A DNA stretch of 22,773 nucleotides, from positions 1 through 22,773 of the IMG/VR virus record IMGVR_UViG_3300042294_001856. One strand, written 5' to 3'. Position numbers and translations under genes: made by a program. The stretch's first letter is position 1. Each line of letters opens with the position of its first letter. The notes beneath the pieces were generated by a model, which saw only the letters and a program-made list of their open reading frames with translations, was not told the DNA's origin and did not search any database. The DNA is from a virus. Of this stretch, positions 1,013 to 22,467 are shown in pieces.

Positions 1013-1064
1013 CAGTGACCGCCTTACGGTCAGACGGCGCGTGCGCCGTTTCGGCTTGTCATGC
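1013..1064 (-). repeat. Double-hairpin repeat, copy A
   Basis: About 52 bp, nearly identical to the element at 1730-1783. Read on the minus strand it starts at the stop codon of the clamp gene (GCATGACAAGCCGAAACGGC), then forms a hairpin of seven base pairs (ACGGCGC with GCGCCGT, 2-base loop) and a second of six (TGACCG with CGGTCA, 5-base loop TAAGG). It ends immediately before the ribosome site of the next gene. The only difference from copy B is the loop of the GC hairpin. It is best read as a regulatory or mRNA-processing element of the operon; there is no U-run to make it a plain terminator. Confidence 0.75.
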
Positions 1065-1700
1065 TTTGGGCGCCGTCCAGGCCGGTGCGCGCGTTAGCGG
1101 CGCGGCTCGCTTGTCGCGTATGGGCATAATGACGCCGAAAGCCTCAATGGGCGCGCCAGAGCCCGCCAGCAGGTCCACCATGGCCGGATTGGGGCCATTG
1201 TGCGCCACGATGGGCCGGAAGTCCCCGCGGCCATGTAGGGCTTTGGTCGCTTCCGCGAACGTGGCCAACAACTTGAAGTCGTAATGCGCCAACTCGCCGC
1301 TTGCATCGTCGCGCGGCACGACCGCGCGCCAGTTGGGATAGGTAGCGTCGATTCCGCCTTCAGTGTATGTGACGCCGTTGTGGGCGATGCTGATCTGTAG
1401 GGCGTTGTTGCCCACGGTGGCGAGCGTCACGGTGGCGAGCTCGCTATCACGCGCGCCCACCTTGATACGCTTGACTAAGCTCAGCGGCACGATGAACGGC
1501 GCGAACGCCTCCGGCGCCCCTGTATCGTCGCGCCAGTCGTGCCGCGCCGCGATCAGGCGCGCGCCATCGGTGGCGACGAACGTGGGGCCGGCCGGCGTGT
1601 GTTCGACGCATACACCCTTAAGGTAGTAACGCGTCTCGTCAGCGCTGGCGGCAATGGCGCAGGCCTTGAGCGCGCGCAAGTCTATGGTGAACGTCGTCAT
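1059..1700 (-). CDS. Shortened DNA polymerase III beta-type sliding clamp
   Basis: This protein resembles the DnaN (beta clamp) family, which encircles DNA and tethers the replicative polymerase. The match covers clamp domain 2: RYYLKGV (24-30), FVATDGARLIAA (41-52), FIVP (69-72) and TYPNWRAVVP (120-129), corresponding to RYYLNG, VATDGHRLA and FPDYRRV(I/L)P in bacterial clamps. GVIMPIR (189-195) matches the YVVMPMR end of domain 3. At 213 residues it lacks all of domain 1 and, by this reading, the first half of domain 3 (bacterial clamps have about 370). I chose the second ATG as start because GAGGG lies five bases before it; the first ATG, 12 bases upstream, overlaps that site. It is flanked on both sides by the double-hairpin repeat. 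The family is fairly confident from motifs; ring geometry and activity are untested. Confidence 0.75.
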   Translation of the reverse strand: MTTFTIDLRALKACAIAASADETRYYLKGVCVEHTPAGPTFVATDGARLIAARHDWRDDTGAPEAFAPFIVPLSLVKRIKVGARDSELATVTLATVGNNALQISIAHNGVTYTEGGIDATYPNWRAVVPRDDASGELAHYDFKLLATFAEATKALHGRGDFRPIVAHNGPNPAMVDLLAGSGAPIEAFGVIMPIRDKRAAPLTRAPAWTAPKA

Positions 1701-1729
1701 AGTGTCCCTCATTTATTTTTGAGCCTCAT

Positions 1730-6504: not shown

Positions 6505-6660
6505 ATGCCTTTGGTAAAGTCTGCCTCCAAAGAGGCGTTCCGCAAGAACGTCAAGACTGAGATGGCCCACGGCAAGCCGGCAAAGCAGGCGGTCGCCATC
6601 GCTTACAGCACCAAACGCGCTGCGTCGAAGGCGTCTTCCGGCAGCAAGAAGGGTAAGTAA
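6505..6660 (+). CDS. 51-residue basic mini-protein (DUF6496-like)
   Basis: The product starts MPLVKSASKEAFRKNVKTEM and contains GKPAKQAVAIAYSTKRAA, a pattern I recognise from the widespread phage family annotated DUF6496 (MPLxKSxSKxAxxxNxxTExxxGKPxKQAVAIA). Net charge is strongly positive. A longer reading of the same frame begins at 6340, but the ATG at 6505 matches the family start and lies directly after the preceding stop. Its TAA shares a base with the ATG of the portal gene, so it is coupled to portal translation. The role is unknown; the family is typically found next to packaging and head genes. Confidence 0.75.
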   Translation: MPLVKSASKEAFRKNVKTEMAHGKPAKQAVAIAYSTKRAASKASSGSKKGK

Positions 6661-8762
6661 TGGCTAAGGACCGCAAAGATCTGCTTGACACTATGCGGTC
6701 GCGGTTCTCGCTGGCTATTGCTGCGTATTCCGACAGCCGCGAGGACGAGCTGGACGATTTGCGGTTCATGGCGGGTTCGCCGGACAACAATTGGCAGTGG
6801 CCCGCCGACGTGCTGGCGACGCGCGGGTCGGTGCAGGGGCAGACAATCAATGCGCGGCCCTGCCTGACCATCAACAAGCTGCCGCAGCACGTCCGGCAGG
6901 TGACGAACGAGCAGCGGCAGAACAGGCCGACCGGCAAGGTAATCCCGGCTGACGACCGCGCCGACGTGCGGGTCGCTGAGATCTTCGACGGCATGGTCCG
7001 GCACATCCAGTACATTTCGGACGCTGACGTCGCCTACGACACGGCCTGCGACAACCAGGTCACCTACGGCGAGGGCTTCATCCGCCTGCTGACCGAATAC
7101 GTCCGCGACGATAGCTTCGATCAGGACATCAAGATCGGGCGTATCCGCAACTCGTTCTCGGTCTACATGGACCCGACGATCCAAGACCCGTGCGGTGCGG
7201 ACGCCAAGTATTGTTTCATCACCGAGGACGTCACCAAGGAAGAGTACGAGCGTCTGTTCCCCGACGCCATGCCAATCTCGTCCATCCAGACGCAAGGCGT
7301 GGGCGACGCCTCGCTGTCGCAGTGGCTGGCCGAGGACACGGTGCGGATCGCGGAGTACTTCTTCTACGAGTACTCGCCCACGACGCTCAATCTGTACCCC
7401 GGCAACATCACGGCGTTCGATAAGACGCCGCAGGATGCCGCGCTCAGGCAGATGTTCGGCAAGCCCCTGCGCAGCCGTCAGGCTGACCGCCGCAAGGTCA
7501 AGTGGGTCAAGACCAACGGCTACGAGGTGCTGGAGGAGCGCGACTGGGCGGGCAAGTATATACCCGTCGTGCGCGTTGTCGGCAACGAGTGGGAAGTTGA
7601 CGGCCAGATCCACGTCTCCGGCCTTGTGCGCAACGCCAAGGACGCGCAGCGCATGTACAACTACTGGGTCAGCCAAGAAGCCGAGATGCTGGCTCTGGCC
7701 CCCAAGGCACCCTTCATTGGCTATGGCGGCCAGTTTGAAGGTTACGAGATGCAATGGAAGACGGCCAACACGAACAACTGGCCGTACCTTGAGGTGAACC
7801 CCGATGCGACTGACGGGATCGGAAATCCTCTCCCGCTGCCGCAGCGCGCCGCGCCGCCTCTTGCGCAGACTGGGCTTATCCAAGCCAAGATGGGCGCATC
7901 CGACGACATCAAAGCGACCACGGGTCAGTACGACTCTAGTCTTGGCGCTACCTCCAACGAGCGCTCAGGCCGAGCCATTCTGGCTCGCGAGCGGCAGGGG
8001 GATACGGGTACATACCACTACGTTGACAACCTCGCCCGCGCCGTCCGGCACGTCACGCGGCAGCTTGTCGATCTGATCCCCAAGATCTACGATACCGAGC
8101 GTGTCGCTCGGATCGTCGGCCTCGACGGCGACGTCGATATGGTCAAGATCAATCCGATGCAGCCCGAACCGGTCAAGGAAATTCGCGACCAGAACGGCAT
8201 TGTGATCGAAAAAATCTACAACCCCTCAGTCGGCGTCTACGACGTCATGGTCACGACCGGCCCTGGCTACATGACCAAGCGGCAGGAAGCGCTGGACGCC
8301 ATGTCCATGCTGCTCCAGTCTAACCCGCAGCTTTGGAGCGTCGCAGGCGATCTGTTCATCAAGAACATGGACTGGCCGGGCGCGCAGGAAATGGCGGCGC
8401 GGTTTGCCAAGATCATCGACCCGAAGGTCATGGAGGGCGAGGACCAGTCGCCCGAGATGCAGGCCGCCAAGATGCAGCTTGACATGCTGACGCAGGAGCT
8501 AAATCAGGTCGTCGGCATGTTGCAGCGCGTCGAGCAGTCGATGGAGGCCCAAGAGCTTCAGATCAAGGCTTACGAGGCTGAAACCAAGCGCATTTCGGCT
8601 GTGCAGGCTGGCATGACGCCCGAGCAGATCCAAGAGATCGTGATGGGGACTATCGCTGCGGCGGTGGATACGGGCGATTTGGTGCCCGGTAACTCGCCTA
8701 TGCGTGAAGAGTTGCCGATGATGGCTGAACAGCCCCCGATGGCCGGAGGAATGCCTGTATGA
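6660..8762 (+). CDS. Portal protein (P22 gp1-like)
   Basis: The portal is the dodecameric ring at one capsid vertex through which DNA enters and leaves. This 700-residue protein has the length and pattern of the P22-type portal (725 residues in P22): an N-terminal helical part (LLDTMRSRFSLAIAAYSDSR), RPCLTINKLPQHVRQVTNEQRQNRP (about 61-85), and SVYMDPTIQDPCGADAKYCF (about 165-184), then a long wing/stem region and a helical C-terminus rich in glutamine and glutamate (about 600-670) that probably forms the barrel facing the capsid interior. The ribosome site AAGGG is well placed. It shares one base with the upstream gene and four with the next (ATGA). Confidence 0.92.
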   Translation: MAKDRKDLLDTMRSRFSLAIAAYSDSREDELDDLRFMAGSPDNNWQWPADVLATRGSVQGQTINARPCLTINKLPQHVRQVTNEQRQNRPTGKVIPADDRADVRVAEIFDGMVRHIQYISDADVAYDTACDNQVTYGEGFIRLLTEYVRDDSFDQDIKIGRIRNSFSVYMDPTIQDPCGADAKYCFITEDVTKEEYERLFPDAMPISSIQTQGVGDASLSQWLAEDTVRIAEYFFYEYSPTTLNLYPGNITAFDKTPQDAALRQMFGKPLRSRQADRRKVKWVKTNGYEVLEERDWAGKYIPVVRVVGNEWEVDGQIHVSGLVRNAKDAQRMYNYWVSQEAEMLALAPKAPFIGYGGQFEGYEMQWKTANTNNWPYLEVNPDATDGIGNPLPLPQRAAPPLAQTGLIQAKMGASDDIKATTGQYDSSLGATSNERSGRAILARERQGDTGTYHYVDNLARAVRHVTRQLVDLIPKIYDTERVARIVGLDGDVDMVKINPMQPEPVKEIRDQNGIVIEKIYNPSVGVYDVMVTTGPGYMTKRQEALDAMSMLLQSNPQLWSVAGDLFIKNMDWPGAQEMAARFAKIIDPKVMEGEDQSPEMQAAKMQLDMLTQELNQVVGMLQRVEQSMEAQELQIKAYEAETKRISAVQAGMTPEQIQEIVMGTIAAAVDTGDLVPGNSPMREELPMMAEQPPMAGGMPV

Positions 8763-13246: not shown

Positions 13247-14458
13247 ATGGCTAACTCGCTTCTTACTATTGACATGATCACGCGCAAGGCTCTCGAAATC
13301 CTCGAGAACAACCTTGTGCTGACCCGCACCGTGAACCGTCAGTACGACGACAGCTTCGCGGTTGAGGGAGCCAAGATCGGCTCCACCCTGCGCATCCGTC
13401 TGCCCGACCGCGCTCTGGTCACGGACGGCGCTGCCCTTCAGGTGCAGGACGACAACGAGCAGTTCACCACGCTCTCTGTCGCCTCACAGAAGCACATCGG
13501 CGTCAACTTCACGACTGCCGAACTTACCATGCAGCTCGACGACTTCGCTGAGCGCGTGCTGAAGCCTCGTATTTCGCAGCTCGCCTCGTCCATCGACGCG
13601 GACGTCGCCAACTCGTTCAAGTCGATCTACAACTCGGTCGGCACGCCCGGCACGACGCCGTCGACTTCGCTTGTGCTCCTCCAGGCGCAGCAGAAGCTGA
13701 ACGAGAACGCTGCCGTCATGGCCCCGCGCTATGCGACGGTTAACCCCGCCGCCAACGCTGCGCTCGTGGAAGGCATGAAGGGCCTCTTCAACCCGACCGA
13801 CACTATCAGCCGCCAGTTCAAGAACGGCCTGATGGGGACGGGAGTGCTGGGTTATGAAGAGATCAGCATGTCGCAGTCGATCAAGCAGTTCTCGACCGGC
13901 ACGTTCTCCCGTACCGCGTCCACGACTGTTGGAACCACTGTCTCCGCTCAGGGCGCGACGACCGTTGTCCTGTCTCAGGGCTCGGCCACCACGACCCTCA
14001 AGGTTGGTGACGTGTTCACCATCGGCAGCGTGTTCGCCGTCAACCCGCAGACCCGCGAGTCCACCGGCTCGCTCCAGCAGTTCGTGGTTACGGAAGACAC
14101 CGCTGGTGTCGCCGGCACGTTCACGGTCAAGGTTAGCCCGGCCATCTACACGCCCGCGAACGCTCTGGCGACGGTGGACAGCTTCCCGCAGTCCGGCGCT
14201 GTCGTTACGTTCCTCGGCTCTGCCTCGACGCAGTACCCGCAGAACCTTGTCTACCACAAGGATGCGATCACCTTCGCCACCGCCGACCTTCTGCTCCCGC
14301 AGGGCGTCGATATGGCGTCGCGTCAGGTCCACAACGGTATCTCGCTGCGTGTCGTGCGCCAGTACGACATCAACAACGACCGTATGCCCTGCCGTATTGA
14401 CGTCCTCTACGGCTTCGGTGTGATCCGCCCGCAGATGGCTTGCCGCATCTGGGGCTAA
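13247..14458 (+). CDS. Major capsid (coat) protein, P22 gp5-like
   Basis: The shell-forming protein with the HK97 fold. At 403 residues (P22 gp5 is 430), it shows patterns I associate with the P22 coat family: N-terminal ALEILENNLVLTRTVNRQY (about 14-32), GSTLRIRLPDRALVTDG (about 45-61), LASSIDADVANSFKSIYNSVG (about 111-131), a mid-protein insertion-domain-like segment with GDVFTIGSVFAVNPQTREST (about 251-270), and C-terminal VRQYDINNDRMPCRIDVLYG. It uses a highly regular, GC-rich codon set, as expected for the most abundant product. A strong GC hairpin follows its stop after nine bases. Confidence 0.92.
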   Translation: MANSLLTIDMITRKALEILENNLVLTRTVNRQYDDSFAVEGAKIGSTLRIRLPDRALVTDGAALQVQDDNEQFTTLSVASQKHIGVNFTTAELTMQLDDFAERVLKPRISQLASSIDADVANSFKSIYNSVGTPGTTPSTSLVLLQAQQKLNENAAVMAPRYATVNPAANAALVEGMKGLFNPTDTISRQFKNGLMGTGVLGYEEISMSQSIKQFSTGTFSRTASTTVGTTVSAQGATTVVLSQGSATTTLKVGDVFTIGSVFAVNPQTRESTGSLQQFVVTEDTAGVAGTFTVKVSPAIYTPANALATVDSFPQSGAVVTFLGSASTQYPQNLVYHKDAITFATADLLLPQGVDMASRQVHNGISLRVVRQYDINNDRMPCRIDVLYGFGVIRPQMACRIWG

Positions 14459-15210: not shown

Positions 15211-15895
15211 CGGCGCACTGCGTCTTCTGGGAGTTCTCGCTGAAGGCGAAACGCCTTCGGCTGAGACGTCGCAGGACGCGCTGTCGGCTATGAACCAGAT
15301 GATCGACAGTTGGAACACGGAGCGCCTCTCCGTCTACGCGACGCAGGATCAGGTGCTGACGTGGCCGACCAACGAGCGCATACGCACGCTCGGGCCGACC
15401 GGTAATCTAGTCGGCAACCGACCTGTCATGGTGGACGACAGCACCTTCTTCCGCGATCCGCTGACCAACGTGTCCTACGGCATCAAGCTGATCAACCAGC
15501 AGCAGTACAACGGCATCGCGGTTAAGACCGTCACCAGCACCTATCCGCAGGTCATGTTTGTGAACATGACGTACCCGGACATTGAGTTGTACGTCTACCC
15601 GGTGCCGTTCCGAGAACTGGAGTTTCACTTCATCTCCGTCGAGGAACTGACCCAGCCCGCCAACTTGGCGACGACGCTGGCGTTTCCGCCGGGCTACCTG
15701 CGGGCGTTCCGGTACAACTTGGCGTGCGAAATGGCTCCTGAGTTTGGCGTTGAGCCGTCGCAGCAAGTGCTGCGCATCGCAATGTCGTCCAAGCGCAACA
15801 TCAAGCGCATTAACAACCCCGACGACATCATGGCGATCCCGTACAGCATCACAGGTACTCGCCAGCGTTACAACATCTTTGCCGGGAACTTCTGA
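15185..15895 (+). CDS. Tail accessory factor (P22 gp4-like)
   Basis: gp4 of P22 binds under the portal ring after packaging and begins the tail. This 236-residue protein carries the family pattern: EQINGALRLLGVLAEGETPS (about 5-24), ALSAMNQMIDSWNTERLSVY (about 32-51), then YPQVMFVNMTYPDIELYVYP (about 119-138) and LAFPPGYLRAFRYNLACEMAPEFG in its C-terminal third. P22 gp4 is 166 residues, so this is a longer form, as in many non-enteric relatives. Overlaps by 26 bases with the upstream gene and by one base with the gp10-like gene argue for fixed co-production of the tail-hub proteins. Confidence 0.88.
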   Translation: MTTAGEQINGALRLLGVLAEGETPSAETSQDALSAMNQMIDSWNTERLSVYATQDQVLTWPTNERIRTLGPTGNLVGNRPVMVDDSTFFRDPLTNVSYGIKLINQQQYNGIAVKTVTSTYPQVMFVNMTYPDIELYVYPVPFRELEFHFISVEELTQPANLATTLAFPPGYLRAFRYNLACEMAPEFGVEPSQQVLRIAMSSKRNIKRINNPDDIMAIPYSITGTRQRYNIFAGNF

Positions 15896-17418
15896 TGAAG
15901 ACGCCCATTCTAGGGTCGGCCTATGTCACCCGCAGCCCCAACGCTGCCGACAACAGAATGGTCAACCTTTACCCGGAAATTGTTCCCGAAGGCGGCAAAG
16001 AGCCGGCGTTCTTGCGCCGAGCGCCGGGTCTGCGGCTGCTTGCGTATGTCGGCAACGGCCCGGTGCGGGGTCTGTGGACGTTTGGCGATTACGCTTACGC
16101 TGTCTCGGGCGACACTTTTTATAAGATTGACGATGCGTGGGTCGTTACCGCGAAGGGCACCGTTGCGGGCTCCGGTCCCGTGTCCATGGTTGATAACGGC
16201 ACGCAGTTGTTCATCGCGGCGGGCGCGACCGGGTACATCTACAACGCCAACACCGACGTGTTCGCGCAGATCACCGACCCTGACTTCCCCGGCGCGACAA
16301 CGGTCGGCTTCATCGACGGCTACTTTGTCTTCAACGAGCCCAACAGCCAGAAGTTCTGGGTGACCGCCCTGCTCGACGGCACGTCGGTTGATCCGCTGGA
16401 CTTCGCCAGCGCGGAAGGTTCACCAGACGATCTCGTAGCGCTGATCGTGGACCACCGCGAAGTTTGGCTGTTTGGCCAGACCAGCGTTGAGGTATGGTAC
16501 AACGCCGGGCTGCCGGACTTCCCGCTGTCGCGCATCCAAGGCGCGTTCAACGAGATCGGCTGCGTCGCGCCGTTTTCTGTCACCAAACTAGATAACGGCG
16601 TGTTCTGGCTGGGCGCTGACGCGCGCGGGCGCGGCATCGTCTACCGCGCGCAAGGTTACAACGGCCAGCGCATCTCGACGCACGCCGTCGAGTGGCAGAT
16701 CCAGCAGTACAGCGACATCTCGGACGCAACCGCCTACACCTACCAGCAGGACGGCCACTCGTTCTACGTCCTGAACTTTCCGACCGCCGACATCACCTGG
16801 GTCTACGACGTCGCGACGCAGGCGTGGCACCAGCGCGCCGGATGGCTGAACAACCAGTTCACTCGCCACCGCGGCAACAACCAGATGTCGTTTAACGGCG
16901 AGATCGTCATCGGGGACTACCTTGCGGGCGCAATCTACGCCTACGACCTCACGGTCTACACTGAAGCTGAGTCGGTCCAAAAGTGGCTGCGTTCGTGGCG
17001 CGCGTTGCCGACTGGCCAAAACAACCTGACCCGCACAACGCAGCACAGTCTTCAGCTAGATTGTGAGTCTGGCGTTGGGCTGAATGGGTACGATTTTTAC
17101 GACGTGTTTACTTTAACGGCCGAAAATAACGATCCTTTGATCACTGAAAGCGGGGATACCCTTATTGCGTCGTTTCTTGCCACGCAAGGGGCCGACCCCC
17201 AGGTAATGTTGCGTTGGTCGGATGATGGCGGGCATAACTGGTCAAACGAGCATTGGAAATCCATGGGCCGGATTGGGCGGACTGGTGAGCGCGTTATCTG
17301 GCGGCGGCTTGGCATGACCATGAAGTTGCGCGACCGCGTGTATGAGCTATCCGGCACTGACCCCGTGTCCATCACCATCCTAGGCGCAGAACTGATCGCG
17401 AGCCCGACCCGTGCCTGA
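15895..17418 (+). CDS. Tail hub / packaged DNA stabilisation protein (P22 gp10-like)
   Basis: gp10 forms the hexameric hub between gp4 and the needle and keeps DNA in the capsid. The 507-residue product shows RSPNAADNRMVNLYPEIVPE (about 13-32), AFLRRAPGLRLL, an inner region of repeated beta blades (DGYFVFNEPNSQKFWVTAL; VWLFGQTSVEVWYNAG), and a late MLRWSDDGGHNWSNEHW block. P22 gp10 is 472 residues. A segment of about 30 residues near 395-425 (FTLTAENNDPLITESGDTLI) seems inserted between GVGLN and GADPQVMLRW, and its DNA is AT-richer. It shares one base with the gp4-like gene and overlaps the next by eight bases. Confidence 0.88.
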   Translation: MKTPILGSAYVTRSPNAADNRMVNLYPEIVPEGGKEPAFLRRAPGLRLLAYVGNGPVRGLWTFGDYAYAVSGDTFYKIDDAWVVTAKGTVAGSGPVSMVDNGTQLFIAAGATGYIYNANTDVFAQITDPDFPGATTVGFIDGYFVFNEPNSQKFWVTALLDGTSVDPLDFASAEGSPDDLVALIVDHREVWLFGQTSVEVWYNAGLPDFPLSRIQGAFNEIGCVAPFSVTKLDNGVFWLGADARGRGIVYRAQGYNGQRISTHAVEWQIQQYSDISDATAYTYQQDGHSFYVLNFPTADITWVYDVATQAWHQRAGWLNNQFTRHRGNNQMSFNGEIVIGDYLAGAIYAYDLTVYTEAESVQKWLRSWRALPTGQNNLTRTTQHSLQLDCESGVGLNGYDFYDVFTLTAENNDPLITESGDTLIASFLATQGADPQVMLRWSDDGGHNWSNEHWKSMGRIGRTGERVIWRRLGMTMKLRDRVYELSGTDPVSITILGAELIASPTRA

Positions 17419-17989
17419 GAACATCACGCAGATACCCGCCGCTCGCGTGCCGATTGCTGAGCAGCCGACGCCGTACCCGGCGCGGCCTTGGTATCGGTAC
17501 TTCTACAACCTGTTCGCCATTCTTGGCAGCGGATCGCTGCGCAACGGGGCGTTTCACGACGAGACGACGCAAACCGCTGCGGCTCCTAATACTGGCTATG
17601 CCATCACATTCAACAAGACGGACTACAGCCAAGGTGTCTATCTTGGTACGCCGACGTCGCGGGTGTACGTGGACCGGCCCGGCCTGTACAACTTCCAGTT
17701 TTCCGCGCAATTCGTCAGCACAAACGCGTCCGCCAAAGACATTTACATTTGGGCGGACGTTAACGGTACGGCTGTCCCGCAGTCAGCCACTAAAATCACC
17801 ATGAAGGGCTCTAACGAGTCGTTTTTGGCCGCGTGGAACTTCTTTTTGCGCCTTAACACGGACGACTATTTCCGTTTGCGGTGGGCCACAACTGACGTAA
17901 ATGTCCAACTGGCTGCTTCCGGTGCGACCGCCTTTTCACCGGCAATTCCATCTGTTATCCTGACCGTAGCTTCAAACATAGGTGAATAA
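17411..17989 (+). CDS. Jelly-roll-like virion protein
   Basis: A 192-residue protein starting with GTG. The N-terminal part is proline-rich (QIPAARVPIAEQPTPYPARP) and is followed by WYRYFYNLFAILG, an aromatic helix. From about residue 45 a beta-strand pattern runs to the end (GVYLGTPTSRVYVDRPGLYNFQFSAQ) resembling C1q/TNF-type jelly-roll domains common in phage fibres. I recognise the type from short-tailed phages, where it follows the gp10-like gene. Probable tail or needle-associated component. The start rests on the overlap with the upstream gene; no strong ribosome site is seen. It shares one base with the next gene. Confidence 0.6.
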   Translation: MPENITQIPAARVPIAEQPTPYPARPWYRYFYNLFAILGSGSLRNGAFHDETTQTAAAPNTGYAITFNKTDYSQGVYLGTPTSRVYVDRPGLYNFQFSAQFVSTNASAKDIYIWADVNGTAVPQSATKITMKGSNESFLAAWNFFLRLNTDDYFRLRWATTDVNVQLAASGATAFSPAIPSVILTVASNIGE

Positions 17990-19410
17990 TGGCCGTTCTC
18001 ACCCCATCCCCCAAGATGCAGTTCGAGAGCGCGGCCGGCGTGCCTCTGTCGGGCGGCAAGGTGTACACCTACACGGCGGGTACGACGACGCCGCTTGCTA
18101 CCTTCACGGACTACACCGGAGCTACGCCCAACTCCAACCCGGTAATTCTCAATTCGCGCGGCGAGGCGTCTATTTGGCTTGGCTCGGCAACGTACAAGTT
18201 TAAACTGACCGACGCTAACGACGTTGAGATCTGGACGGTCGATTACATCTCCGCGCCGACGTCCGGTGTCTCCCCAGTCTTGTCCGGTAACGTCGTCATC
18301 GACAGCGACACGCCTGGCCCGGCGCTCAAGATCACGCAGACGGGCACTGGCCCGGTCATGCGCGTGCAGGACAGCGCCGACCCGGACGCAACGCCGTTCA
18401 TCATCGACAGTGCCGGTCAGGTCGGCATCGGCACGGCTACACCGTCCGCACAGTTGGAGACGACCGGCGCGGCTAAGTTCGCTTCCGCCACGATCACCAC
18501 GCCGTTAGGCCCCGCCAGCGGTGGCACGGGCCTTTCCGCGCTGACGGTCGGCAATTTGATGGTCGGTAACGGCACGAGCGCGGCTACTTTGCTGGCTCCG
18601 GGCACCGCAGGCAACGTGGTGTTCAGCGACGGAACGACCTTTCAGTCCGGTGTCGTTGGTTTTGCCCCCGAGGGCACGCGGCGCAATCTGAGGGTGCAAG
18701 TCACCGGCAACACGTCGATTGCGGTTACCGCCGGTAGTGTAGTGGTCTACACGGCCGCCGGACTTGGGCGCGCGCTGAGCACCGTCAGCCTGACGCTGAG
18801 CACGGCCACAACCGGCGCGAACGGGCTGGACACGGGCGTCATCGCCAACAACACATGGTACGCTGTCTGGGTGATCTACGACCCCACGACACCGACCGTT
18901 GCTGGGCTGCTGTCCCTTAGCGGAACTGCGCCGACGCTGCCGACCGGCTACACCTTCAAGGCCCGCGTTGGCTGGGTTCGCTACGCGACCGCCGCGCTTG
19001 CGCGCACGCTTCAGGTTAACGACCGGGCGCAGTACGTCGTTACGACCGGCTCACAGACACCAAACATGCCGACAATGGCTAATGGCATTGCAGGCAACGT
19101 CTCCACACCTACTTGGGTGTCGGTGCCGTGGGCCAACTTTGCGCCCTCCACCGTCGCTGTTCTCCACCTCAGCATTATGATGCAGAACAAAAACAACCTT
19201 TACGTTATCCTTGCGCCTAATAACAGCTATGGCGCGTTTGACTCCCTAACCAATCCACCGCCGTATCTTACTGTTGGAACCGGCGCCAGCCCGATAGCGG
19301 CCGCGCCGGCTGTTAGTGCAGACATTATACCTGAGAGCGCAAACGTGTTTTGGGCGTCACAAGCCTCTAACGGTTACGTCTTCATTCGCGGCTGGACGGA
19401 CATCATCTGA
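17989..19410 (+). CDS. Tail fibre with P22-type head-binding-like N-terminus
   Basis: A 473-residue fibre. Residues about 1-90 (PKMQFESAAGVPLSGGKVYT, then YTAGTTTPLATFTDYTGATP and NPVILNSRGEASIWLG) are typical of virion-anchoring domains of short-tailed phage fibres and spikes. A middle fibre region carries VGIGTATPSAQLETTGAAKF and the GGTGLSALTVGNLMVGNGTS type repeat. The C-terminal half is a globular beta domain (about 225-473) ending NGYVFIRGWTDII, likely the receptor-binding part. No catalytic motif or chaperone domain is visible. With the tailspike at 10512-12170, the phage seems to carry two receptor-binding proteins. Confidence 0.75.
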   Translation: MAVLTPSPKMQFESAAGVPLSGGKVYTYTAGTTTPLATFTDYTGATPNSNPVILNSRGEASIWLGSATYKFKLTDANDVEIWTVDYISAPTSGVSPVLSGNVVIDSDTPGPALKITQTGTGPVMRVQDSADPDATPFIIDSAGQVGIGTATPSAQLETTGAAKFASATITTPLGPASGGTGLSALTVGNLMVGNGTSAATLLAPGTAGNVVFSDGTTFQSGVVGFAPEGTRRNLRVQVTGNTSIAVTAGSVVVYTAAGLGRALSTVSLTLSTATTGANGLDTGVIANNTWYAVWVIYDPTTPTVAGLLSLSGTAPTLPTGYTFKARVGWVRYATAALARTLQVNDRAQYVVTTGSQTPNMPTMANGIAGNVSTPTWVSVPWANFAPSTVAVLHLSIMMQNKNNLYVILAPNNSYGAFDSLTNPPPYLTVGTGASPIAAAPAVSADIIPESANVFWASQASNGYVFIRGWTDII

Positions 19411-20204
19411 TGACGGACATCGACACGCTCGAACGTCAGTTTCTCGGCCAGCCGCAGGCCGATTGCCCGGTCACGCATCGGTTCGGGCCGGGCGTCTACA
19501 TCCGCGAAGTGCATATGCCGGCGGGCGCGTTCATCATAGGTCACCGCCACAAGACGACGCACCTCAACGTCATGCTGACGGGGCGGCTCGGTCTGCTGAA
19601 CGACGACGGCACCGAGACCGAGATGGTCGCGCCGCAGACGTTCGTAGCGCAGCCCGGCCGCAAGGCGGCGTACATCTACGAAGACGTCATCTGGCAGAAC
19701 ATCCACGCGACGGACGAGACGGACGTCGCCAAGCTGGAATACACCTTCCTCGACAAAAGCCCGGCGTTCTTGGACCACATCGCCGGGCTCGCGCGCCCGG
19801 CCGGTAACTACTCTGAGGACAACGAGGACTTTCTGGCGGCGGTTGCTGACCCGCTCGCGGTGCGCGAGCTTTCCGAGCGCGCCGACGACCAGACGCCGTT
19901 CCCGCAGGGCAACTACAAGGTGATGGTCGGCGCGTCCGCTATCGAGGGCAGCGGCCTGTTTGCAACCGGCGAGATCGCCGCTAACGAGCTGATCGCGCCG
20001 TGGCGAATTGATGGCTTGCGCACGCCAGCCAATCGTTACACAAATCACAGTAAACACCCCAACGCTGTTGTGGTACAGTCCGACAGCGGCAACACTTATC
20101 TGTTCGCTCTGCGGCCCATCCACGGGTGTCGCGGCGGCGAGCTAGGCGAAGAGATTACGGTAGATTACCGACAGGCGCTGCCAACGGCGCTAAGGAGCGA
20201 GTGA
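19410..20204 (+). CDS. Cupin-SET fusion protein, putative protein methyltransferase
   Basis: A 264-residue two-domain protein. The N-terminal half is cupin-like: GPGVYIREVHMPAGAFIIGH with HRHKTTH, so His45, His47 and His51, with His99 as possible fourth ligand, could bind a metal. The C-terminal part carries the three signatures of SET-domain lysine methyltransferases in order: IEGSGLFA (178-185), RYTNHSKHPNA (209-219) and GEEITVDY (246-253); the last two form the pseudoknot that binds S-adenosylmethionine and the substrate lysine. The spacing from the first to the second motif is short, so the variable insert is nearly absent. It lies between the fibre and the ejection genes, with one-base overlap upstream and one base downstream. 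Virion or host proteins are possible targets; activity is inferred. Confidence 0.75.
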   Translation: MTDIDTLERQFLGQPQADCPVTHRFGPGVYIREVHMPAGAFIIGHRHKTTHLNVMLTGRLGLLNDDGTETEMVAPQTFVAQPGRKAAYIYEDVIWQNIHATDETDVAKLEYTFLDKSPAFLDHIAGLARPAGNYSEDNEDFLAAVADPLAVRELSERADDQTPFPQGNYKVMVGASAIEGSGLFATGEIAANELIAPWRIDGLRTPANRYTNHSKHPNAVVVQSDSGNTYLFALRPIHGCRGGELGEEITVDYRQALPTALRSE

Positions 20205-20205
20205 A

Positions 20206-20994
20206 ATGGCCGGTGTTGCAGCAGCAATTATTGGTGGGGCCGCAGCGCTTGGCGGCGCGGCTATCGGCGCGTACGGGGCCAATCAAGCCGCAAACACGCA
20301 AGCGAACGCAGCCCAAGCGGCTCTTAACGCGCAAGAGCGTATGCTTGAGCGCCAGCTAGAGCTGAACGAGCCGTTCCGGGCGGGCGGCATCACCTCCATG
20401 AACCAGTTGCTGACGCTTCTGGGCCTGCCAGGCGGTGACCCCAACTCAGCATCCTACGGCTCTCTGGCGCAGCCGTTCGACATGACTAAATTCGAGGCCG
20501 ACCCCGGCTACGGATTTCGGATGCAGGAGGGCATGAAGGCGCTGGAGAACTCGGCTGCCGCGCGCGGCGGCCTTCTGTCGGGCGCGACGCTGAAGGGCGT
20601 TAACCGTTTCAGCCAAGGCCTCGCGTCGCAAGAGTACCAGAACGCTTTCAACCGCTATCAGATTGAGCGTAACGCTCGTCTGAACCCGCTTCAGAGCCTC
20701 ATGGGGGCCGGTCAGACCGCCACTAACCAGTTGACGGGAGCTATGGGGCAGGCCGGGCAAGGCATGGCGCAGACCTACGGTAATCTCGGTCAAGCGCAGG
20801 CTTCGGCGTATGTGGGCGGGGCACAAGCGGGTATGCAGGGCTTGCAGGGTATCGGTAACGTGGCGCAGAATTACTACAGCAATCAGATGCTGGCCCCAGT
20901 ATTCGCGCGTATGGCGGGCGGCGGCGCTTCGTCACACCCGTACTCGTTTGGGGCTGGCGGTTACACGGGTATGGGTCCGTTTATCGGAGGTTAA
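20206..20994 (+). CDS. DNA ejection / internal virion protein
   Basis: In P22-like phages, gp7, gp16 and gp20 leave the head before the DNA and form a conduit through the cell envelope. This 262-residue protein has the usual features: a hydrophobic Ala/Gly N-terminus (about 4-25, AAAIIGGAAALGGAAIGAYG), then a helical region, and the pattern EPFRAGGITSMNQLLTLLG, FEADPGYGFRMQEGMKALEN, SAAARGGLLSGATLKGVNRF, ASQEYQNAFNRY familiar from phage DNA-transfer proteins. The C-terminus is Gly/Gln-rich and repetitive. It begins one base after the cupin-SET gene. The general role is well supported; equivalence to a particular P22 protein is not. Confidence 0.82.
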   Translation: MAGVAAAIIGGAAALGGAAIGAYGANQAANTQANAAQAALNAQERMLERQLELNEPFRAGGITSMNQLLTLLGLPGGDPNSASYGSLAQPFDMTKFEADPGYGFRMQEGMKALENSAAARGGLLSGATLKGVNRFSQGLASQEYQNAFNRYQIERNARLNPLQSLMGAGQTATNQLTGAMGQAGQGMAQTYGNLGQAQASAYVGGAQAGMQGLQGIGNVAQNYYSNQMLAPVFARMAGGGASSHPYSFGAGGYTGMGPFIGG

Positions 20995-21000
20995 TCTACC

Positions 21001-22467
21001 ATGGCTGATTTCGGACTCGCAGCACAGATTGGACGCGGTGGTGGCGGCGGCAACGCCATGGCGCAGCCGGTCGATCCCATGAACCGTATGACGCAGTTGA
21101 TGCAGCTTCAGCAGTTGCAGCAGAACATGATGTTGGCTCGCGAGCAGGAAGCGCGCGAAGCCGCGTTAGCGCCTTTGCGCCGACAAAATCTTGAGCGCGA
21201 AATTGAGGCCGGGGGCGGGCGCATCAATCTTCTGCGCGAGCAAACTGGTCAGGCGGCTGCGACGCGGCAGCAGGCTGAGCGCACCGAACGCGCGGAAGTT
21301 GCTGCGCTCGACTACATCGCAAAAACGCCGCCCGAGCTGCGCGCCGATCCCGCGCGACTGGATGCGCTGCGCAAGTCTAACCCTGGCGCGTACAACTTCA
21401 TGACCGAAACCATTGCTAAAGCGCGCGCGTTGCAGGAAAAAGCGCGCGCGGAAGGGTTTTCGGCGGATCGGGCGCAGTTTGAGTTTCAGAAGACAGCCTT
21501 GAGCGGTATGTCATCGCTGTTGCCAGCGGTGTCGGAGCGCACATGGCCAGCGATCTACGACGACTACCGCAAGATCGACCCTGTTGGCGCTCGCGTCATC
21601 GGCCCGGATTTCACACCCGAAAACGTCGCCGCGCTGCGCGCGCGCATCCAAGACCGCGCCGATTTGCGGTTTGAAACAGATCCGCAGGGCTTTGAATACA
21701 TCGTCAACACCCGCGACGGGTCAAAAACACCCGTCGTTAAGCGCGGCGTTAATCCGCCCGCGACATCGCAGTTTGGTGCGCTTGACATGGGCGCGCGCAT
21801 TAACACGCCGCAGATGATTGGTCAGGGTGCCGCCGGGCTTGTGTCGCCCGCCGCTATGGAGCCGTCCGGTGCAGCTCCCATCATCCAGCCGCGCGCGGTT
21901 GCGCCTGAGACAGCGGGTGCTGCGCCTATGGCGGCTGCGCCTGCGCCGACTGCGGCGGCCTCCCCCGGGCCGAGGGCTGCGGCCGAAGCTGAAAAAACTC
22001 GCGCCACGGAAACGGCTAAAGCTGAAGTTGTCAGCGAAGACCGCCGTCGCGGAGCAGGCGAGGTTCTCAAAGCGCTTAACGATGCGAAGATTGAAGACCT
22101 TATCACCAAATCAACGTCAGGCATTGTTCAGCGGACGTTGGCAGGTGTTCCGGGCGCTTTTGGTGTAGCCACATCAGGTATGGAGCGTATCGGGCAGCTT
22201 GCCACTATAGAAAGCCAAATCATCACTCAGATCTTGGGTGGTAAGCTGGGCGGCGGCATATCTGACGCCGACGTTAAACTTGTGAAAGCGGGCGTAGCCG
22301 ACATTGCCAACCCAGACATACCCGCAAACCAGCGTCTTGCCGCCTTTCGTCAGTTGAAGAACAACCTTTCGGCCTTGGCATCCGGCAAGGAAATCGCCGT
22401 TGCGACGCCTACGCGTGGAGCGGCAGAAAAGAACGCCGTAGACACAAACAACCCTTTTTTGAGGTGA
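21001..22467 (+). CDS. Second ejection-type internal protein
   Basis: A 488-residue protein rich in Ala, Gln and Arg. Residues about 25-105 are a long charged helix with glutamine runs (MTQLMQLQQLQQNMMLAREQ); residues about 105-240 are a more ordered helical block; about 280-340 is an Ala/Pro-rich linker; and the C-terminal part (about 350-465) is helical again, with hydrophobic stretches such as GIVQRTLAGVPGAFGVATSG. Such linker-rich architecture, following a clear ejection protein, indicates another injected protein of the gp16/gp20 class. No lytic transglycosylase motif is visible. The ATG at 21001 follows a GGAGG at the end of the preceding gene. Confidence 0.72.
   Translation: MADFGLAAQIGRGGGGGNAMAQPVDPMNRMTQLMQLQQLQQNMMLAREQEAREAALAPLRRQNLEREIEAGGGRINLLREQTGQAAATRQQAERTERAEVAALDYIAKTPPELRADPARLDALRKSNPGAYNFMTETIAKARALQEKARAEGFSADRAQFEFQKTALSGMSSLLPAVSERTWPAIYDDYRKIDPVGARVIGPDFTPENVAALRARIQDRADLRFETDPQGFEYIVNTRDGSKTPVVKRGVNPPATSQFGALDMGARINTPQMIGQGAAGLVSPAAMEPSGAAPIIQPRAVAPETAGAAPMAAAPAPTAAASPGPRAAAEAEKTRATETAKAEVVSEDRRRGAGEVLKALNDAKIEDLITKSTSGIVQRTLAGVPGAFGVATSGMERIGQLATIESQIITQILGGKLGGGISDADVKLVKAGVADIANPDIPANQRLAAFRQLKNNLSALASGKEIAVATPTRGAAEKNAVDTNNPFLR

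Follow-up and report, generated by a model that had tools for sequence, protein, structure and literature searches.

A predicted cupin-SET fusion protein with a shortened SET domain, encoded ahead of phage DNA ejection genes

Closest described systems and the locus

Most known SET methyltransferases come from eukaryotes and from the large viruses that infect them, among which PBCV-1 encodes vSET, a histone H3-Lys27 methyltransferase. SET domains are known in viruses including a few phages, and one phage record carries the machine annotation "pbcV-1 histone H3-lys 27 methyltransferase structure". In known SET enzymes, the SET-I region helps to form the substrate and cofactor clefts, and its length varies from enzyme to enzyme. 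For the cupin superfamily, metal-binding residues are not required for membership. The phage protein described here is predicted to combine both folds. Its SET half has the SET fold and the GxG, NHxxPN and GEExxxDY motifs in common with PBCV-1 vSET, MLL1 and EZH2, but it appears to be about 30 residues shorter, shows GCxGG before GEE (in the main clade), is fused to a cupin and is found in a bacterial virus.

With regard to gene position, the closest described systems are gp14 of phage P22 (PF11039, PHROG 651) and gp13 of phage T7 (PF11090, PHROG 308), both assembly-related and encoded in the same slot before a gp7- or gp14-type ejection protein. They belong to Pfam and PHROG families different from those of the fusion, which can be regarded as their analogue by position only. 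A GNAT acetyltransferase fold has been attributed to proteins of the T7 gp13 type (PMC6775973), but our sequence comparisons did not confirm it. P22 gp14 and T7 gp13 showed no homology to each other (hhalign probability 0.2%, from shallow alignments), and the T7 gp13 profile had no PDB match; we therefore do not claim that the slot goes back to a common GNAT ancestor.

At the sequence level, the closest relatives are members of PHROG 34170, namely gp30 of Rhodoferax phage P26218 and the proteins of phage zth2-2 and Pseudoalteromonas phage PH1, which display the same full-length cupin-SET architecture in the same place before the ejection genes. The members from P26218 and PH1 lack the histidine triad of the cupin, whereas the one studied here keeps it. 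P26218 gp30 is recorded only as similar to a putative tail fibre, and no functional description of PHROG 34170-type proteins was found in the literature searched. Cupin-only proteins (PHROG 12032 and 24280) of Vibrio, Dickeya and Sphaerotilus phages have a homologous cupin in the same slot, but are without SET and mostly show an intact triad (59/68). In the literature searched, we found no account of the cupin-SET fusion, of its form without SET-I, of the coupling to ejection genes or of a reciprocal loss of the cupin site, in line with the initial annotation, which knew of no characterised protein of this architecture.

The window, that is, the whole stretch of viral DNA that was analysed (22,773 nucleotides), revealed the following features:

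6660..8762 (+), portal protein (PHROG 156, E 7e-131)
13247..14458 (+), major head protein (PHROG 283, E 1e-75)
15895..17418 (+), head closure protein Hc3, P22 gp10-like (PHROG 578, E 2e-134)
17989..19410 (+), upstream neighbour, probable tail fibre (from sequence; PHROG 17105, function unknown)
19410..20204 (+), predicted cupin-miniSET fusion gene, 264 aa (ORF, PHROG 34170, AlphaFold2 model)
19410..19754 (+), predicted cupin half, residues ~1-115, with His45, His47, His51 and His99 (PDB fold matches, PHROG 12032/24280, residue conservation)
19755..19901 (+), helical linker, residues ~116-164 (alignment; helices in the AlphaFold2 model)
19902..20177 (+), predicted mini-SET half, residues ~165-256 (PF00856, profile matches to MLL1, vSET and EZH2, fold search of this half alone)
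Motifs within the mini-SET half: GSG 180-182, RTPANRYTNHSKHPN 204-218, GCRGG 239-243 and GEEITVDY 246-253 with the catalytic-type Tyr253
20206..20994 (+), downstream neighbour, P22 gp7-like DNA ejection protein, 262 aa (PHROG 598 "DNA ejection", E 2e-37)
21001..22467 (+), second downstream neighbour, probable second ejection protein, 488 aa (position; PHROG 33352, function unknown, E 6e-10)

The stop of the fibre gene overlaps the start of the fusion gene by 1 base, and the next gene begins two bases past the fusion stop. These neighbours agree with the place between fibre and ejection genes that the fusion had originally been given. At the other end of the window, a 217-aa protein (1059-1712, minus strand) matched PHROG 947 (DNA polymerase processivity factor) weakly and PHROG 3007 (RusA-like resolvase) better; by eye it resembles a truncated sliding clamp, and the RusA label may be wrong.

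Architecture and conservation of the fusion protein

The gene is a single open frame from ATG to TGA, along which GHRHKTTH (residues 44-51), His99, GSGLFA (180-185), NHSKHPNA (212-219) and GEEITVDY (246-253) follow one another, so that the uninterrupted frame and the motif order first described are all present in the translation. Pfam SET (PF00856) matched with 30.8 bits, above its cut-off of 22.4 (E 4e-7). The only full-length match was PHROG 34170, function unknown (E 8e-76); PHROG 12032 "short tail fiber protein" and PHROG 24280 "tail fiber adhesin" cover only the cupin half. Purifying selection acts on both halves, with a dN/dS of about 0.09 for the cupin and about 0.07 for SET against the nearest relative (L001), whose linker is 4 residues longer in the alignment. 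A chance or frameshift artefact is ruled out by the homologues together with dN/dS; chance is excluded because of the Pfam SET score, the full-length match to PHROG 34170, eight full-length phage relatives and 129 relatives in IMG/VR. A match to human WDR4 in a single-sequence phmmer search (E 0.003) was absent from the profile searches and is considered to be chance. PADLOC defence models gave no match to the window protein, and a defence system was therefore rejected.

The AlphaFold2 model of the whole protein, built with 31 natural relatives, reached a mean pLDDT of 91.3 and a pTM of 0.87, and predicts a cupin, a linker and a compact SET domain. When the whole model was used in a fold search, the best PDB matches were all cupins and the SET domain of MLL1 entered lower, while in BFVD the top matches comprised phage cupins together with a "SET domain containing protein" of 263 residues from an uncultured phage. 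The cupin was assigned from structure, on account of the double-stranded beta-helix matches in the PDB, since the Pfam Cupin_2 score alone is not significant (12.4 bits, below the cut-off of 27.2). Modelled alone, the SET half had a pLDDT of 92.4, and in Foldseek all of its 50 best PDB matches were SET methyltransferases, including MLL1, vSET, EZH2 and SETD8, with TM-scores on the query of about 0.6-0.68. These alignments span the whole domain; the C-terminal pseudoknot of the phage SET is putative. The profile of the SET half matched MLL1 (E 1e-9), PBCV-1 vSET (E 6e-7) and also EZH2. Taken half by half, structure prediction thus points to cupins and to SET enzymes, which are the two domains originally proposed.

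The SET-half profile aligns to MLL1 in two blocks, between which the phage proteins have 6 residues and MLL1 has 41; relative to MLL1, a 6-residue insert lies ahead of GEE in the phage SET. The spacing from GxG to NH is 32 residues in 66 of the 69 fused representatives, compared with mostly 49-66 (mode 62) in the nearest cellular relatives with readable spacing. Judged from these alignments, the phage SET lacks about 30 residues, corresponding to SET-I. As the length of SET-I varies among SET enzymes, its absence would mark a reduced variant and not an exclusion from the SET family.

Eight positions (G182, R204, T205, N212, H213, E248, T250 and Y253) are invariant in all 69 non-redundant fused proteins, and others are less strict, namely G180 (68/69), P217 (65/69), N218 (67/69) and D252 (62/69). 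Several of our searches were seeded with SET peptides, which could inflate the apparent conservation of SET; in seven representatives obtained by tblastn on phage records or with cupin-only seeds, the key SET positions were invariant, save for one N218S. Lack of conservation of NHS..PN or GEE..DY among homologues had been named as an observation that would speak against a SET domain, and both motifs turned out to be conserved across the 69 representatives.

The GCxGG insert is present in the main fused clade and not in the PH1 clade, in which SET evolves faster than its own cupin and NHxxPN is partly relaxed. At PH1-clade loci such as L331, L334, L169, L328 and others, the cupins are 70-88% identical and the SET halves only 38-64%, a pattern that would reflect either rapid change in the SET half or its exchange. 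L245:2633-3502 represents a third fused form, which is very divergent and has a compact SET lacking the GCxGG insert.

Distribution, gene slot and proposed function

Searching with tblastn yielded 58 phage records, eight of them with the full fusion at 29-50% identity and the remainder with the cupin only. In IMG/VR, one search gave 129 relatives and all searches together hundreds of loci; a search seeded with the cupin of Vibrio phage 234P9 found no relatives there. After removal of duplicates and cut genes, 216 distinct relatives remained, 134 cupin-SET and 82 cupin-only, numbers that depend on the search seeds and are not natural frequencies; residue counts refer to 69 fused and 68 cupin-only representatives. 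Exactly one SET was present in each of 14 complete or long phage records. One fused copy, with its next gene in the usual place, lies on a contig binned as Candidatus Bathyarchaeota (L104), which is probably misbinned or an integrated phage. The fusion is thus real and recurs in phage genomes with ejection proteins as frequent neighbours; what the initial annotation had overlooked is the wide family, the cupin-only versions in the same slot and the shortening of SET.

Across the relatives, the overlap with the next gene has a median of 4 bases. Among 45 proteins encoded downstream of fused genes, 25 belong to PHROG 598 and 6 to PHROG 21132, both "DNA ejection", and the same families, together with T7-type internal virion proteins, were found downstream of 45 cupin-only loci. 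In both groups the next gene most often codes for a P22 gp7-like or T7 gp14-like ejection protein. Loci with SET are preceded by genes for head closure Hc3 or fibres, or by genes without assignment. A small virion gene immediately follows the cupin or cupin-SET gene in P26218, two Manatee Spring phages, PH1, Vibrio 234P9, Dickeya Amaethon and Sphaerotilus SnaP-R1; this next gene is P22 gp7-like in 234P9 (PF25688, E 7e-20) and T7 gp14-like in SnaP-R1 (PF24072, E 2e-23). An exception is the cupin of Alteromonas phage H4/4 (L452:4860-5333), located between RNA polymerase and head-tail connector and not before an ejection protein. One of 40 genes upstream of SET-positive loci codes for a PHROG 1249 acetyltransferase and directly precedes the cupin-SET gene.

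We consider it rather likely that the fusion is an active SET methyltransferase acting during virion morphogenesis. The analysis itself supports the fold, the motifs, the gene position, the conservation and the modular evolution, whereas catalysis, a lysine substrate and a virion protein as substrate are what we infer. The gene product would be a late protein from the morphogenesis module of a P22-like podovirus. Its cupin barrel, presumably the ancestral part, could act as an adaptor or assembly factor in the slot ahead of the first ejection protein, and the C-terminal mini-SET would be an S-adenosylmethionine-dependent protein-lysine methyltransferase. The cupin might position SET on an assembly intermediate, where SET would methylate one or more lysines of a phage particle or core protein during assembly. 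Catalysis is favoured because of the SET fold, the retention of the active site (69/69) and purifying selection, and a role in morphogenesis because of the overlap with ejection genes and of the slot, which is that of gene 14 in P22 and of gene 13 in T7. Since 82 relatives carry the cupin without SET, methylation would not be essential to the slot. Counting against a methyltransferase are the missing SET-I, the lack of a SET-linked lysine and the relaxation of SET in the PH1 clade. Judged from their sequences, phages of the cupin-SET type probably methylate some protein.

A SET-linked conserved lysine was found in neither of the two adjacent ejection proteins: the best column of the first reached 26% Lys in fused and 34% in cupin-only phages, and that of the second 35%. 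A fibre or ejection protein, as first suggested for the substrate, fits the position of the gene and may be the target, but for the two adjacent ejection proteins this comparison gave no support. Methylation could possibly concern a lysine of lower conservation, or else a different virion protein or a protein of the host, and we would give a specific virion protein a little less than an even chance. Were an active SET domain directed at the host instead, for instance at a protein of the ribosome or nucleoid or at a chaperone, the late operon would set the timing only. Such a target would be compatible with the lysine comparison and with the movement of SET cassettes between phage lineages with differing virion proteins, but it appears improbable, as overlapping frames bind the gene to its position ahead of the ejection genes across different podovirus types, and genes for host takeover are as a rule early ones that lack translational coupling with ejection genes.

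It is likewise unlikely that SET is no longer an enzyme and serves an assembly or virion protein as a module for structure or peptide binding, its motifs being kept for folding. The missing SET-I region, the annotation of the family as short tail fibre or adhesin and the faster evolution of SET in the PH1 clade would suit such a module, but the catalytic-type residues including Tyr253 are invariant (69/69), dN/dS is about 0.07, and retention of the complete NH/Tyr set would be surprising in a domain with a structural role only. We regard it as very improbable that the cupin half binds a receptor as a short tail fibre (adhesin) with SET as a side decoration: PHROG 12032 and 24280 do match the cupin half, but "short tail fibre" traces to phage phiAP1, where an RmlC-like cupin received this annotation without validation (PMC8703784), the fibre and adhesin labels seem to rest on such annotation spread through databases, strong conservation over different hosts is unlike a host-range determinant, and P22 and T7 hold non-fibre proteins in the same slot.

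Returning to methylation during assembly, the shortened SET is conserved in well over 100 distinct short-tailed phage sequences and translationally coupled to the ejection operon, which would suggest a protein-methylation step in phage assembly that is undescribed in the literature searched. This raises the testable question of which protein is methylated and with what effect on DNA ejection. As a speculative and rather doubtful extension, many short-tailed phages might methylate lysines of their own ejection or head-completion proteins through a mini-SET on a cupin without its former metal chemistry, and the slot might be a general site for enzymes, or descendants of enzymes, that modify the injected proteins (GNAT-like, cupin, cupin-SET).

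Cupin metal site and origin of the fusions

Cupin-only representatives keep H47 in 67, H51 in 61 and H99 in 63 of 68 cases, while in the 69 fused representatives H99 is replaced by Tyr in 52 and H47 by Gln or Tyr in 32. The whole triad is found in 59/68 cupin-only and in 4/69 fused representatives; the window protein, holding H45, H47, H51 and H99, is one of these four. The metal-site cupin of the initial annotation is accordingly present in the window protein with its four histidines, but is not general to the fused family, and a cupin acting as sensor or second metal enzyme is unsupported as stated, the triad being mostly lost in fused proteins. That the window cupin has remained a metal enzyme and operates together with SET, for instance by oxidising a methylated residue or sensing a ligand, would be in keeping with its four histidines and with the near-invariant triad of cupin-only relatives, but seems very improbable, as loss in 65 of the 69 fused representatives argues against tandem catalysis as the general design.

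In a cupin tree of 104 columns and weak support, the main fused clade loses H99 first, and the PH1 clade keeps H99 and loses H47. The metal site thus appears to be broken differently in two fused lineages, and this loss by different substitutions would provide a clean natural case of a scaffold swapping chemistries. When SET was compared statistically with loss of the triad, well-supported branches yielded just 2 independent pairs, a number that does not allow significance to be reached. The SET label changes five times on the tree, at least two of these on well-supported branches, and SET therefore appears in at least two separate cupin lineages. Between the main and the PH1 clade, the cupins are about 20-25% identical while the SETs reach up to about 50%, and for this reason transfer of a linker-SET cassette between cupin lineages fits better than a single fusion long ago, although differences in rate may also play a part.

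Three cupin-only genes (L338, L248 and L320) lie beside or inside fused clades with no SET remnants nearby and are possible cases of SET loss. Weak matches were also seen to stand-alone SET proteins of unrelated phages, namely Pelagibacter phage Kolga (H115), phage Ps15 (H124) and phage P-SSM7 (H127), which are possible sources of the SET cassette.
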